Of a stretch of 36,447 bases of DNA, positions 7,212 to 36,447 are shown piece by piece. Origin of the DNA: Acidimicrobiales bacterium. GTDB taxonomy: Bacteria > Actinomycetota > Acidimicrobiia > Acidimicrobiales > RAAP-2. Numbering within the stretch: the stretch's first letter is position 1; every line of letters starts with the position of its first letter. Made by a program: the position numbers and the translations under genes. The notes beneath the pieces were generated by a model that was not told where the DNA came from, made no database searches, and was given only the letters and a program-made list of their open reading frames with translations. Location of the stretch: NCBI GenBank assembly GCA_025362585.1, contig JANYFR010000047.1:1-36447 (forward strand), written 5' to 3'.

Positions 7212-10200
7212 GAGGTCTCCACTCTGGCTCGCGTGACGCGCTGACTGACGACCTTGGACGAGGCCCCCGGACCCATGGTCACGCCGTAGAGCGCGTCGGC
7301 TGCCTCCATCGTGCGCTTCTGGTGGGTCACGATCAACAACTGCGCCTCGTCACGGAACTCGTCGACCAGACTGAGGAATCGCTGCAGGTTCGCGTCGTCG
7401 AGGGCCGCTTCGACCTCGTCCATCATGTAAAAGGGCGAGGGCCGCGATCGAAAGACCGCGAAAAGGAACGCGAGCGCCGCCATCGAACGCTCGCCGCCCG
7501 ACAGTAGCGAGAGCCGACGGACGTTGCGACCCATGGGGCGAACCTCGATTTCGACACCGGTGTTTAAGGGGTCGTCGGGTTCGGTCAGGATCAGTCGACC
7601 CTGACCACCGGGGAAGAGCATCGCGATGAGCGTGGAAAAGTGCTCGTTGACGTCCGCCACGGCACTCGAAAACGTCTGCATGATCTCCTCGTCGAGGGCG
7701 CGCAGCACCTCTTGGAGTTCGCGGCGGGCGTGGCGCACGTCACTCACCTGGGCGTCGAGGTCCTTGTAGCGCTCCTCGAGGGCCGACAGCTCTTCGAGAG
7801 CCAGCGGGTTGATCGGACCGAGCGAGGTGATCCGTGCCTCGAGTTCGCCAACTCGCTGATCGAGCGTGACGTCCGCACCGAGCTCGATCGGGCGCGCCGG
7901 TCCCATCTCGTGAGGCTCGACGCCGAGATCGCGGCGCACGATGTCGTGCAGGTTCGCAATCTTGACGACCAGTTCGGCCTGCTCTATCTCGGCCCGCCGT
8001 TCCACGTTACCGAGCTCGACGAGTCGGTCGTCGGCGACCTGACGCGAGTGGCGAATAGCTTCGAGTCGATCGGCACTGGCCCGCGACGCCTCGAGCTGTT
8101 CACGATACGTTGAGTCGAGGGCCTCCTGGGAGACGCGAACCTCATCGGTCGCGTGTCGAACAAGCTCCGCGAGCCGTTCGAGGACCTGCATGTCGAACTC
8201 GATACCTTCGCGCCGGCTGGCGGCGACGGCCCGTTCACTCGATCGGCCCTCGAGACGCTGCTCAATCTCAGTGCGACGCAACTCAATGAGGCGACGGCGT
8301 TCGCCGAACTCGGCCTCGAGTCGAGAAAGGGCCGTCGCGCGGGTACTGACTTCGGTGCGGTGACGCTCGAGCGCCCGGCGCGCGTCGCCCCACTGGTCCC
8401 GGCGACTCTCCGTTTCGTCGACGGCCGCCTCGAGGAGGGGCAACTGGTCGCGCAGGACCAACAGCTCGTCGTCAATGGTCGCGAGCTGCTCCGCGAAGCT
8501 CGCGACCTCACTCGCCTGAGCCTGCGCGTCGCGGGTCAGTTCGTCGACGAGCGCTCCCAGGCGCACCACCTCGCCCTCGAGACGACGGGACTCGCCGTCG
8601 GCCTGGGCGACTCGGGTCGTGGCTCGGGTCACCCGCAGTCGGGCCGAAGCGGTTTGTTCGTCGGCGCGCAGGCAGCGCGCGCGCCTCGGCTCCACCGCGG
8701 CGGCCGCGTCGCGCGCGGCACGTTCGGCCTCCTCGACCGTGGCGCTCGTCACGATGGCCCGCCCGGAGGCCACGCGCCAACCCGACGAAGCGAAGCGGTC
8801 ACCCTCGCGGGTGACGATCACGAGCTGCGGATGGGCCAGCGCGACCTCGATGCCCAACTCCCAGTTCTCGGCGATGAACGCGCGCGAAAAGAGGGCGTCA
8901 AGGACCCGCGTCACGTGTTCGGGAGCGTGGGCCCTCGCGCGCACCAGCGTGCGCAGTGAGGCGCACCCCTCGGGTGTCGCGGGCGGATCGATGGGCTGAT
9001 CCGCGACGGCGAGGATGAGCCCGGTGCCGCCTTCGCGTCGCAACATCTCGAGCGCGGCCCTCGCCGACTTCTTGCCGTCGACGACCATGGCACTGACCGA
9101 CGCACCAGCGGCCGATTCGACGGCCCGCTCCCAACCTTGCTCGACCTCGATCAGATCGAGAAAGGAGCCGAGGACGCCCTCCACCTTGTGCAGCATCGCT
9201 CGACTTCCGGCGCCGGAAAACTCATCGAGGGCGGCGGCGAGGAGTACGGCCCGGGCCTGCGTGCGAGCGGCAAGGTCGGAGGTCTCGCGCAGGGCCTCGT
9301 CGCTCAGGTGTCGGTCGCGCTCGGCGGCGTCGCCGTCGCGCTCGGCGTCACTGAGCTCCGCCCGAGCGGCGTCGAGTTCGGCCCGGGCCAGGCCCAGTCC
9401 GTGCAACGCAGTCCCGAGATCGCTGGTGGCCTCACTGGCGCGCGCGCCCGTTTCGGCCAGGCGCGCGGCGCTCCGCCGTTCGCTTTCGCGCAACGAGCCA
9501 GACGACCGTTCGAGCAGGGCGACGCGCTGGCCGACCGCGACGAGAGCCGCCTCGTCGTTGGGCGCCGACATCGAGCCCCACGACTCGTCGAAGTCCATCT
9601 CGGCGCGCTCGAGCGCCGCTTGGTCGGCGGTGAGGTCGTCGCGCCGGGTGACCAGGGCGAGCTCCTCGCCGTCCAGCGACGTCAGGTCGATTGTGAGTTT
9701 CGCGGCGTCGGCCTCGAGCGTCGCGATGACGTTCTCGTCCGCCGACGCCGCCAGGGCCTGACGCAGCGACCGTTCGCGCTCGGCGATGATCGACGAGGTG
9801 CCCTTGGCGCGTTCGGCGAGGCCCGCGAGGGTGCCGAGCGCCACCGCGAGCAGCTCTTCGCGACGGCTCGCCATCTCGGCCGCCGTGGCGCTGGCCTGGG
9901 CGTCGAGGGCGACCAGTTCGAGACGCAAAACGCGCTCCTTGGTCGATGACGCGGCGAGATCCGTCTCGAGCTGGTGGCGACGGGCTTCGAAGGCCGCGAG
10001 TCGCGTCGAGAAGAGCAGGTGGCGCGCCGCACGCAGGTCGCTCGCGACGTCGGAGTAACTGCGCGCCGACGCCGCCTGGCGTTCGAGGGGCCGCATCTGT
10101 CGTCGAACTTCGCGCACCAGGTCGCCGAGGCGCTCCAGGTTCTCTTGGGTCGCACTGAGGCGCCGCTCGGCCCGCTCTTTTCGACGTCGGTGCTTCAGCA

Positions 10201-33491: not shown

Positions 33492-35096
33492 TTATGAGTT
33501 GATGCCTACCCACACGACGCCGAGGTCAGTGGTAATGGCCCCGGGGCCTGCGTAGAAACAGACGTTGGCTAGTTTCCGAGCAAAATAATGCGCAGTTGCA
33601 ATTGAATGGGCGTAGTCCTCAACGACGAAGCCCTCCGCAGAATGAGATGAGCATTTCTTAACTTGCAACGTGGCACGGGGTAGGCCCCTCACCTCGACCA
33701 GGGTATGTTCGCGCGCACCGCCACTTAACGTCACCACTTTGTTCGTCGTAGGAACAGTTGGCAGTGATAACTGACCGACCTTCGTGGCTTTGCCCGCGTA
33801 GATGCCACGTACGGCCCGAACCGTCGGTCCACCCATTTGCAGATGACACCTTGGTCCGCGGTTTGTGAAGGTCACCGGTGTAAGCAGGGTTCCCGATGGG
33901 TAGCCTCCACCTCCCTTGTAAGTTGCCCCAACCTGCAACGTGATGTTGGACGCCTGGCACACTGGTGAAGACACTGCCGCGGCCTTTGATTCCGGTGCCT
34001 TAGAGCCCGACGATCGGGCGACGAGAGGCACAGCGAGCGGCCCCGAAGTGAGCGCGGCCGCCAGATCGTAGGCATCGGTCTTCGACACGGAGACCAGCTG
34101 CATTTGACCGTCGAAGGAACTGAAGGTGGTGTTGGCCGGTTGGATGATTGGAGCTTCAGCAATGGCCCCGTTTAGATCCACGGCGAGCTGTCGGTGGAAA
34201 TACTTCTTAGCCACGCGATCCCACTGTTGGGACTCGGCCGCGTTGAGACGGACGTTCACGAGCCATGCACCGGAGTCCGGCACACGAGTCACGGTGGCTG
34301 AGGCAACCTTCGACGAGAGCGTAACGAGCGTCGGACCGACGAGGTATCGCTGTGCGGTGCCTGCACCGCTGTTCATTAATGGCAAGAGGGCCCAGGTGTT
34401 CGGCGCCTTGGCGTCTTCTGCCGGGGTCGTGGTCGCGTAGACCGCGAGTGCTGGGTCGGGCTCAGTCGTGGGTACGGCGAACCCCGAAACAGTAGGGGCG
34501 TCATACTGCGGACTCGAACAAGTCGCTGGTAACGGGCTGGTCGAGTCCGGGCCACTCTGACGCTTGGCGTAGCAGGTCACGGATCTGACGAGCAGTTCGG
34601 GCGACGAGGTGAGAAACGACGTTGGGGTCGCCAGTCCCGCTGGCCCGTTGGTGACGACCAAGGCCCCGTGCGAGACCATCACCGTGGCGTTCTTGGCACC
34701 CACCGCATGAAGCCGAGCGGTCATCACGCTCTTGTCGGCCACTAGTTGCGCCGCGCTCGTCGGCCCATTGGTCTTCGGGTAAAGCGTCACTGCATTGGCG
34801 ATATTTGAGGAAAGGCCTATGAAGAGCGCAGTGGCGCTCACCGCGACTGCGAGGAGACCGATTCCTATGGTCGAAAGACGAAAATGAATGCTTTGCATGT
34901 TGCGCTGCCGGTACAGCGATGCCCTACGCCGCGTAGAGATGCGGGCATGAATGGCTCTGGTCGCGGGTTGCTCAATACCAACCAGCACCCGCGCCATCAA
35001 GTGGTCGTAAGGCACGAGTTCGTCGAGCGCGCTGTCACTCAAGTCCCGAACAGGGTCAATGTCCGTCATTAATGCGATGAGTAGCTCTTCGTTCAT
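33492..35096 (-). CDS. One-pass membrane protein with SecD-P1-like and DUF4232-like exterior; probable partner of the ECF sigma factor
   Basis: 534 residues. About 70 cytoplasmic residues precede one membrane helix (about 75-95). Outside, residues 115-155 (ADKSVMTARLHAVGAKNATV) resemble the P1 base of SecD, and residues 275-360 (VRLNAAESQQWDRVAKKYF, LAVDLNGAIAEAPII, DAYDLAAALTSGPLAVPLVA) the SecD P1 head. From about 380 follows a DUF4232-like beta domain (VCQASNITLQVGATYKGGGG and FTNRGPRCHLQMGG). The multi-pass channel part of SecD is absent, so this is not a translocase. The ATG overlaps the sigma-factor stop as TGATG, so the pair is coupled; an anti-sigma or sensor role is inferred, as no classical zinc anti-sigma motif is seen in the short N-terminus. 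Confidence 0.85.
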   Translation of the reverse strand: MNEELLIALMTDIDPVRDLSDSALDELVPYDHLMARVLVGIEQPATRAIHARISTRRRASLYRQRNMQSIHFRLSTIGIGLLAVAVSATALFIGLSSNIANAVTLYPKTNGPTSAAQLVADKSVMTARLHAVGAKNATVMVSHGALVVTNGPAGLATPTSFLTSSPELLVRSVTCYAKRQSGPDSTSPLPATCSSPQYDAPTVSGFAVPTTEPDPALAVYATTTPAEDAKAPNTWALLPLMNSGAGTAQRYLVGPTLVTLSSKVASATVTRVPDSGAWLVNVRLNAAESQQWDRVAKKYFHRQLAVDLNGAIAEAPIIQPANTTFSSFDGQMQLVSVSKTDAYDLAAALTSGPLAVPLVARSSGSKAPESKAAAVSSPVCQASNITLQVGATYKGGGGYPSGTLLTPVTFTNRGPRCHLQMGGPTVRAVRGIYAGKATKVGQLSLPTVPTTNKVVTLSGGAREHTLVEVRGLPRATLQVKKCSSHSAEGFVVEDYAHSIATAHYFARKLANVCFYAGPGAITTDLGVVWVGINS

Positions 35097-35656
35097 CAGT
35101 GTGTCTCCTGGATCGGTAGGGGCGAGATACTGGCGGTGCCGTTGGTTTCGTTGAGTAGTTGTCGCAGGTGCTGGCGAGCCCGGGAGATGCGAATGCCCGC
35201 CGCCTTCTCGCTACAGCTGAGAACGAGGCCTATTTCGCGGTACGTCAGGTCTTCCCAGTAGGTGAGTTGGAGAAGTTCTCGCTCTTCAGATCGCAGCTCG
35301 AGCAAGGCCTCCATCAACTGCCTGATGTCCTCTTCGCTGTATCGCGGCGCGTCCTGGGTGTGCTCACGCTCAAAGGCCAGGCGCATCTCCAAACGCAGCG
35401 AGCGCCGGTGGCCACGCAAGGAGTTGGAGAGAACACGACCCGCGATGCCGTAGAGCCAGAACAGTTCTTGCTCTCGTGGAGGGATCTCATCGAAGCGCCG
35501 CCAGGCAACCACAAAGGTCTCGGCGACGAGGTCTTCGGCCGCGCTGCGATCTTCGAGGCGACGTAGCGCGTAACGCAGCAGTGCTTGGCGATACGTCGCG
35601 ACTACTCGCGCCAACTCCGTATTCTTGTCGCTTCCCTGTCTTTCAGGTTCTCTCAT
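35096..35656 (-). CDS. ECF-type sigma-70 family RNA polymerase sigma factor
   Basis: 186 residues. Region 2 is RYALRRLEDRSAAEDLVAET followed by FVVAWRRFDEIP; region 4 is EERELLQLTYWEDLTYREIG followed by LVLSCSEKAAGIRISRARQHL with its helix-turn-helix. Regions 1 and 3 are absent, as in extracytoplasmic-function sigma factors. ATG at 35656 is chosen; GTG at 35659 directly precedes it. No clear ribosome site. The stop overlaps the start of the membrane protein, the usual sigma/anti-sigma layout. The 150 bp upstream contain no promoter I can assign with confidence. Confidence 0.93.
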   Translation of the reverse strand: MREPERQGSDKNTELARVVATYRQALLRYALRRLEDRSAAEDLVAETFVVAWRRFDEIPPREQELFWLYGIAGRVLSNSLRGHRRSLRLEMRLAFEREHTQDAPRYSEEDIRQLMEALLELRSEERELLQLTYWEDLTYREIGLVLSCSEKAAGIRISRARQHLRQLLNETNGTASISPLPIQETH

Positions 35657-35807
35657 CACTGTCTTAATGTCCGGATAGCAAGAATCCCTTCACACGAACA
35701 CCACCCTTCTTCTCGCCCAGACCGATGAAACTGGGTAGTGCATACACGAAAGAGCCTCGTCCTTGCCGAGAAAACTGACCCTATGCGACTACTTCGGTAT
35801 AAACCTC

Positions 35808-35826
35808 TTAGTAGGGCCGGTGGGGA
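35808..35826 (+). repeat. Direct repeat copy 2 of the tRNA 3'-end sequence
   Basis: ttagtagggccggtgggga, matching 33052-33070 with one mismatch. It consists of the acceptor end and part of the T-arm of the tRNA fragment at 35812-35853 plus four bases downstream of it. Confidence 0.6.
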
Positions 35827-35853
35827 TCGAACCCACGACCGAGGGATTATGAG
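35812..35853 (-). other. 3' half of a tRNA with CAU anticodon (Met or Ile2), 5' half missing
   Basis: Read on the minus strand: the anticodon loop CTCATAA (anticodon CAT at 35849-35851), the 3' anticodon strand TCCCT, variable bases CGGTC, a perfect T-arm GTGGG-TTCGATC-CCCAC, then the acceptor strand CGGCCCT and A73. CCA is not encoded. The bases before the loop (GCTTTCAC) cannot pair with TCCCT, and no D-arm or AGGGCCG acceptor strand is found upstream, so this is not a functional tRNA. Identity starting at the anticodon loop is typical of integrase attachment cores. Confidence 0.8.
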
Positions 35854-35866
35854 GTGAAAGCATTCG

Positions 35867-35954
35867 GTCGGACTGGTCCGGTGGCGTCGGTTTCAACCGA
35901 GTTCCACGGCAACTTTTGTCCGTAGGCGTCGGATTGGTCCGGTGGCGTCGGTTT
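35867..35954 (+). repeat. Two 27-bp direct repeats next to the tRNA fragment
   Basis: Positions 35867-35893 and 35928-35954 are identical except at one base (c or t at the seventh position), with 34 bp between them. They could be integrase arm sites or remains of a short tandem unit; nothing else in the window matches them that I can see. Confidence 0.7.
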
Positions 35955-36023
35955 GGTTTGTGGGATGAAACGTGGGATTTTTGGTCGCAAATATTCGTCA
36001 AATCGACATCTAAGATCGTGAAG

Positions 36024-36365
36024 ATGCCTTCAGCTCTGATTGCCACGGGCGGAACAATATGTTGGTCTGACCGACAACACCGAATGCTGACCGGACATGA
36101 ACTGGCCAATTCTGCTGGGGTTGATTTCGATTCGATCATCGAAGTTGGGACGAAACCTTCGTGGGACCTGACAATTTTAGACATGGTCGACATCGCAGGG
36201 GCCGTTTGTTCCGCCATTGACGATGGCCATACGTCAGTGACCGTAACCCATGGAACCGACACGATGGAAGAGACCGCGTGGCTCACGGATTTACTGCTCG
36301 GAGTCGAACGAAGAATCAGCAGTCGAGTGATATTCACAGGTGCAATGAGATTTGCGGATTCCGAT
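36024..36365 (+). CDS. L-asparaginase/glutaminase, N-terminal part only (cut at the terminal inverted repeat)
   Basis: Hydrolyses L-asparagine to aspartate and ammonia. About 114 genuine residues are visible. ALIATGGTI holds the first catalytic threonine, and VTHGTDTMEETAW holds the second Thr-Asp pair; VIFTGAMRFADSD follows as in family members. Full proteins have about 320 residues. At about 36365 the sequence turns into the reverse complement of its own upstream part, giving a false stop at 36380. The ATG at 36024 is preceded only by a weak purine stretch (GTGAAG). The gene lies to the right of the tRNA scar, so it would belong to a different insertion than the sigma operon. Confidence 0.85.
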
Positions 36366-36447
36366 GACTCCGAGCAGTAAATCCGTGAGCCACGCGGTCT
36401 CTTCCATCGTGTCGGTTCCATGGGTTACGGTCACTGACGTATGGCCA
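36224..36447. repeat. Perfect 82-bp inverted repeat at the window end (likely chimera)
   Basis: Positions 36224-36305 and 36366-36447 are exact reverse complements over 82 bp, with a 60-bp spacer, and the right arm ends exactly at the last base of the window. The left arm is genuine asparaginase coding sequence; the right arm has no coding sense. This is the form of a fold-back chimera from strand-switching amplification or of an assembly hairpin. Confidence 0.9.

Follow-up and report, generated by a model that had tools for sequence, protein, structure and literature searches.

We report an ECF sigma factor operon from an Acidimicrobiales bacterium whose second gene encodes a putative membrane anti-sigma factor with an exterior derived from the P1 region of the export protein SecD, and which appears, from sequence comparisons, to be a natural chimera in which the operon of one ECF system (group A) acquired the membrane helix and exterior of another (group B). 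The window, i.e., the whole stretch analysed here, is a contig of 36,447 nt. The sequences most likely describe an anti-sigma sensor whose SecD-derived exterior can be exchanged between sigma factors, and we put the probability of a sigma/anti-sigma pair with a SecD P1 exterior together with a genuine chimera at about 0.78, an estimate that leaves the ligand aside.

The operon lies on the minus strand. Its first gene (35096..35659; GTG start, with an alternative ATG at 35656) encodes a 187-aa ECF sigma factor of group A carrying sigma-70 regions 2 and 4, with matches above cut-off to Pfam Sigma70_r2 (8e-10), Sigma70_r4_2 (2.2e-13), and Sigma70_r4, and to NCBIfam sigma70-ECF (3.4e-21). The second gene (33492..35096, minus strand) encodes the 534-aa partner, which reads as a cytoplasmic tail, a transmembrane helix, a SecD P1 region, and a DUF4232-like domain. 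The sigma stop and the partner start overlap by one base in TGATG, and the coordinates and overlap of the two genes given in an earlier note on this DNA were correct. Beside the operon, at about 35815-35840 on the minus strand, a stretch resembles the 3' part of a tRNA by eye (GGTTCGATCCCCACC); ARAGORN detects no tRNA in the window, and the stretch is perhaps a remnant. Separately, the contig ends in a perfect 82-nt inverted repeat (36224-36305 and 36366-36447, with 60 nt between the copies) that falls in an asparaginase N-terminal fragment (35916-36377) and is likely a fold-back assembly fault.

A hydropathy scan predicts a single transmembrane helix in the partner at about residues 70-88 (34833..34889, minus strand), which gives the layout of an anti-sigma factor (tail, one helix, exterior domain) as predicted topology. 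Outside the helix, residues 105-365 (34002..34784, minus strand) form a SecD P1-like region that keeps many SecD P1 residues. Its head, residues 247-356 (34029-34358, minus strand), matches SecDF_P1_head (PF22599) at 3.2e-11 (43.5 bits, cut-off 27), and the SecD profile TIGR01129 covers residues 105-365 with 40.2 bits, which is under the full-length cut-off of 244.4. The P1 domain of SecD is hence present by both profiles, and the SecD-P1-like ectodomain that the earlier note had read by eye, with an HMM search against the SecDF P1 head as the suggested check, is borne out by that search. Structure databases point the same way when relatives are included: a PDB search with the single partner sequence gave weak matches, SecDF (0.072) coming after ribosomal protein S20, which matched the tail (0.0069), and a profile of ten relatives including the window placed SecDF on top (3aqo, E 1.4e-6). 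AlphaFold models were poor (mean pLDDT 45 for the relative L053 and 36 for the window P1 region); searched against the PDB, the low-confidence model of L053, not of the window, returned SecDF chains at ranks 1-8 with TM-scores of at most 0.20 by query length.

The partner is clearly not a SecD. The membrane part of SecD is a multi-helix RND-type part with six helices; by the same hydropathy scan, the partner has one helix against five in the genome's own SecD, and the 40.2 bits stand against the 244.4 bits that TIGR01129 asks of a full-length SecD. The genome's own SecD is on another contig, preceded by frames that we take to be ruvB- and yajC-like, and is 32% identical to the partner over residues 64-364. 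The partner resembles SecD and SecDF in its P1 head, in the profile match over residues 105-365, and in the first-ranking SecDF chains (for the profile search and the L053 model), and differs from SecD in having one helix, in standing outside the SecD locus of its genome, and in being fused to a sigma-linked tail.

Searching 99 genomes of the genus, we found partners with this P1 exterior in 10 (E <= 7.6e-172); after a wide gap come SecD-like matches, which start at 1.7e-51. An ECF gene lies directly upstream in all ten, nine of them belonging to group B and the window alone to group A, so that adjacency to a sigma gene is conserved in relatives as well as in the window. Eight of the ten P1 loci were also seen in named genome contigs, all of group B and all from metagenome-assembled genomes (which are among the sequences compared throughout), four of them labelled bog, fen or palsa. 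Beyond the genus, an order search (397 genomes) and a class search (395), with at most three candidates scored per genome and most matches taken as SecD from frame length, yielded two further pairs: a group-B-like ECF gene with a P1 partner in G159, which is from another family, and, in G741 from another genus of the same family (L124 2999-4356), a P1-head partner beside an ECF gene of a third type. The survey of related genomes that the earlier note had called for therefore finds the pairing with sigma genes conserved, in the ten genus genomes and also in G159 and G741.

P1 heads themselves are widespread (271 of 296 genomes in a phylum sample). A second search covered G159, G741, and 14 genomes of the phylum sample that had two or more P1 matches each, and gave 30 loci, five matches giving none; among these loci an ECF gene was found only at G159 and G741, both outside the phylum sample, by a phmmer test that sees about 1.5 kb on each side and that ECF genes of other types could escape. 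Some P1 heads occur in stand-alone proteins that look secreted or one-helix by eye (L121 3342-4034, L151, L156, L159, and L161), with no ECF gene found near them on the stretch examined. In G411, a stand-alone P1 protein (L064 4302-5441) has an ECF-like frame (7490-8941) about 2 kb off on the same strand, with a zinc-finger-like frame (by eye) divergent beside it; given this distance and the other frames between, it was not counted as a pair. The genus P1 is joined to its nearest relative, that of G159, by a long branch (2.74) in the P1 tree, and the P1 of G741 stands beside the SecD of its own genome (98/92). This hints at a separate origin of the G741 exterior, which we do not claim, as one clade for all 12 was not rejected (p-AU 0.153).

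The sigma factors and tails fall into two systems. Group A comprises 14 operons in the genus at E 2.1e-72 or better, a count that excludes eleven remoter matches and a fragment at a contig end in G035. Group B, with a sigma start like MDFDxYY, a tail like MSPTDQIQDLFDRA, and its own upstream motif (TAAACGA-N15-CGTCTTA), comprises 12 operons that were reached through the P1 partner or its tail and are not a complete count. The window sigma is 82% identical to the sigma of G456 versus 22-29% to the 12 group-B sigmas, and falls in the group-A clade of the sigma tree with support 99/97. Among the 14 group-A exteriors, eight belong to one family, three to a related family (phmmer 3e-12 to 2e-16 between full-length members), two are short, and the window has P1 plus the DUF4232-like domain; among the 12 group-B exteriors, nine have P1 and three (L118, L119, and L120) have repeats with BNR/sortilin matches under the Pfam cut-offs. 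Outside both counts, five ECF genes (L238-L242) are neighbours of group A in the tree; the tails that go with them look similar, and their exteriors are of a different kind, mutually alike by eye. In G146, one of the two genomes with a short group-A exterior, the next frame downstream matches the commonest group-A exterior.

The putative sigma-binding part of the partner is its cytoplasmic tail, codons 1-60 (34917..35096, minus strand), which is of group-A type: codons 1-58 are 33-67% identical to the tails of the 13 other group-A partners. Neither Pfam nor NCBIfam recognises a known anti-sigma domain (class I or zinc type) in it, nor in the 13 tails scanned singly, in line with the earlier remark that no such domain was obvious in the cytoplasmic part; for this reason we describe the partner as a putative anti-sigma factor outside the known classes. 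The best PDB matches of the tail are weak, to ribosomal protein S20 (E 0.017), and a tail match in G439:C41, which could not be classed, is weak as well (E 4.5e-4). Profile comparison shows no relation between tail A and tail B, and we therefore discount as a method effect (free end gaps) the 31-47% identity over 36 residues that a forced global alignment of the two returns.

Tail A is common to the 14 group-A operons, which bear four kinds of exterior, and tail B to the 12 group-B operons, which bear P1 (9) or repeats (3). Tail type thus seems to travel with sigma type as exteriors change, which is the behaviour expected of a sigma-binding part and leaves the anti-sigma role better supported than before. 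Gene overlap differs between the systems too: all 12 group-B pairs checked overlap by 14 nt, and in group A each of the 8 pairs checked apart from the window overlaps by either 1 nt or 4 nt. It could still be argued that the partner is non-inhibitory and instead activates or localises the sigma, or acts as a receptor that is co-expressed but feeds a different output, as the tail contains no recognised anti-sigma domain and its sigma binding is putative. Overlapping genes, a tail tied to sigma type, one transmembrane helix, and an exterior fit, however, the usual layout of membrane anti-sigma factors (PMC8999054), and we regard a non-inhibitory partner as unlikely. One tail-A partner (L038 3583-4713, in G029) lacks a sigma gene and has transposase-like frames (by eye) just upstream; an insertion may have removed the sigma.

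Each group also has its own promoter-like motif. In the window, GAAGGGA-N10-CCGGACA (35668..35691, minus strand) ends 8 nt before the GTG start and is a putative autoregulatory ECF promoter, possibly of a leaderless transcript. The group-A motif precedes the sigma gene exactly in 7 of 14 operons and with one mismatch in six more, making a conserved putative upstream promoter in 13 of 14; it is absent from the G146 operon (L237) and also from G029, where the tail-A partner has no sigma. The group-B motif is exact in 11 of 12 operons, with one mismatch in the twelfth, and lies about 45 nt before the start, versus just before the start for group A. In its own genome the group-A motif has a single exact match, against 0 for the control pattern. 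With the group-A pattern relaxed, seven sites appeared across five genomes: five at known operons, one in G017, and one in G035 just upstream of the contig-end group-A sigma fragment. A looser expression added one match in L236 that lies outside the operon. For group B, relaxing the pattern yielded 19 sites, of which 11 lie at operons and 8 elsewhere, with one match of a reversed control pattern; the reversed controls of the exact searches and of the relaxed group-A search had no match. None of the relaxed searches revealed a site away from sigma operons that was common to the genomes searched.

The apparent chimeric origin shows at the DNA level and was out of reach of the earlier note, whose SecD P1 match and sigma pairing survived our tests. 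By blastn, the match to group A (L229) ends and the match to group B (L112) begins with an overlap of 5 nt at the apparent recombination junction (34915..34919, minus strand); these five bases, TCGCT, occur in L229, L112, and the window alike. Identity to G456 DNA (L229) is 81.4% from the promoter motif to codon 60-61, and identity to G442 DNA (L112) is 82.9% from codon 60 through the stop and 14 nt further. In the tree, the window P1 is nested among the group-B P1 domains, and a clade of the nine group-B domains without the window was rejected (p-AU 0.016, for a grouping chosen after seeing the tree); these nine relatives are 64-80% identical to the window over the transmembrane helix and P1. 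As helix and exterior match group B from codon 60 on, the window operon joins a group-B input to a group-A sigma, tail, and motif.

An assembly artefact, in which the group-A operon of one population was joined to the P1 gene of another, would produce the same pattern, and two features of the data invite it: the genome is a draft of 64 contigs in which this very contig ends in the likely faulty inverted repeat, and the joint is seen in no other genome of the genus. Against this, the joint is in frame at matching, colinear positions, and representative parental operons (L035 and L112) have no 12-mer in common, so that the 5 nt shared at the joint offer little for an assembly overlap; the genome also contains no other match to a group-B tail and no exact group-B promoter motif. 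We therefore consider an artefact very unlikely and a natural recombinant the better reading.

The part of the exterior after P1 is less constant. The C-terminal domain of the window partner, residues 376-534 (33495..33971, minus strand), has no direct match to PF14016 (Pfam), and a direct assignment to DUF4232 was dropped; what stands is an indirect link through two relatives, L045 and L047, which it matches by phmmer at 2.3e-11 and 1.2e-4 and which match PF14016 at 7.9e-9 and 2.2e-14. Most other relatives scanned gave no PF14016 match, L045 and L047 being the only ones that did. A DUF4232-like end follows P1 in 6 of 10 genus partners including the window, with L115 weakly alike (7.2e-16); L033 and L034 have nothing recognised after P1, L033 having a separate DUF4232-like gene upstream of the sigma, and L116 and L117 have a long repeat region there, with no Pfam match apart from P1 in the L116 protein (scanned as L059).

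This variation bears on which part of the exterior would sense. The pair may be a true sigma/anti-sigma pair in which P1 serves as a scaffold or spacer and the variable C-terminal part senses, e.g., a wall or small-molecule ligand, export being unrelated. Such a role would suit the changing modules after P1 (DUF4232-like, absent, or long repeats), the far diverged sequence of P1 itself, and two group-A partners (L232 and L237) with a short exterior free of P1 that is DUF4232-like by eye only, with no Pfam match and no phmmer match to the window DUF4232-like domain. It sits less well with the distribution of the two parts among the ten genus partners, where P1 is constant and, at 64-80% identity over helix and P1, well kept in the nine relatives, and the C-terminal part varies or, in L033 and L034, is lacking. 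We hold a scaffold role for P1 to be a sizeable possibility, short of probable, in which case sensing would fall to the C-terminal domain.

For the sensor reading in which P1 itself takes part, we propose that the tail of about 60 residues would bind the sigma encoded just before the partner and hold it at the membrane, and that the SecD P1 base and head, followed by the DUF4232-like domain, would bind a ligand outside. Ligand binding would free the sigma through conformational change or cleavage of the partner, and the freed sigma would transcribe at least its own operon from GAAGGGA-N10/11-CCGGACA, a motif that is observed and whose use is presumed. The SecD P1 domain is thought to bind polypeptide (PMC9987972), so an exported or unfolded protein is our first guess for the ligand, perhaps near the translocon exit, and this guess is a tentative one. 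Secretion stress, which the earlier note had put forward, may accordingly be the signal. By comparison with SecD, binding of this kind may have been lost by the diverged genus P1. The full scenario, that a P1 domain was turned into a switch exterior reading export state and was then re-wired between sigmas through one in-frame crossover immediately ahead of the helix, we offer as a possibility that is rather more doubtful than otherwise.

The same supposed polypeptide binding, along with the many residues shared with SecD P1, could also suit an actuator, i.e., a decoy exterior that attaches to the translocon or to the genuine SecD and thereby tunes export, the sigma being no more than co-expressed. 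The partner, however, has none of the four further helices found in its genome's own SecD, and next to the same sigma types this position is also filled by other exteriors, which better suits a sensor slot; an actuator seems to us highly improbable, and a sensor remains our preferred reading.

For most ECF systems we know of no identified signal. Membrane anti-sigma factors are usually membrane-anchored and co-transcribed with their sigma, and have diverse exteriors (PMC8999054); in RsiV-SigV, for example, lysozyme binds the anti-sigma factor (PMC4183432). The window pair resembles such canonical pairs in having a sigma gene and, after it, a one-helix partner with tail and exterior, and in its putative autoregulated promoter, but differs in its SecD P1 exterior, in a tail outside the known anti-sigma domains, and in an exterior that occurs on two unrelated sigma/tail pairs. 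The Sigma-I/RsgI systems of Clostridium thermocellum have modular, polysaccharide-recognising exteriors. At least six of these sigma/anti-sigma systems serve distinct cellulolytic regulons (PMC10766802). They likewise place several pairs of common plan and different exteriors in one group, whereas the exterior in the window derives from the export machine and the swap is visible in the DNA of one gene. ECF52 and ECF53, with predicted glycosyl hydrolase or carbohydrate-binding domains (PMC10766802), are also actinobacterial ECF systems with exteriors from other protein families, but they carry the anti-sigma part fused C-terminally to the sigma, unlike the separate gene of the window.

The titles and abstract openings returned by our literature search contained no description of a SecD P1 exterior on an anti-sigma factor, nor of a DNA-level swap between ECF systems. 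Membrane anti-sigma factors with diverse exteriors are already well known; as far as these titles and openings reach, the SecD P1 exterior and its swap appear new.

Together, one exterior on two unrelated sigma/tail pairs, each of which also occurs with other exteriors, amounts to a natural separation of input and output. It suggests that splicing is tolerated at the border immediately ahead of the membrane helix, and an exterior moved in this way may couple an unchanged input to a different output. If P1 still binds polypeptide, the partner would be a Sec-derived export sensor. If true, these bacteria would read the state of export with a copy of the polypeptide-handling part of the export machine, and the window operon would be a natural counterpart of an engineered sensor swap.
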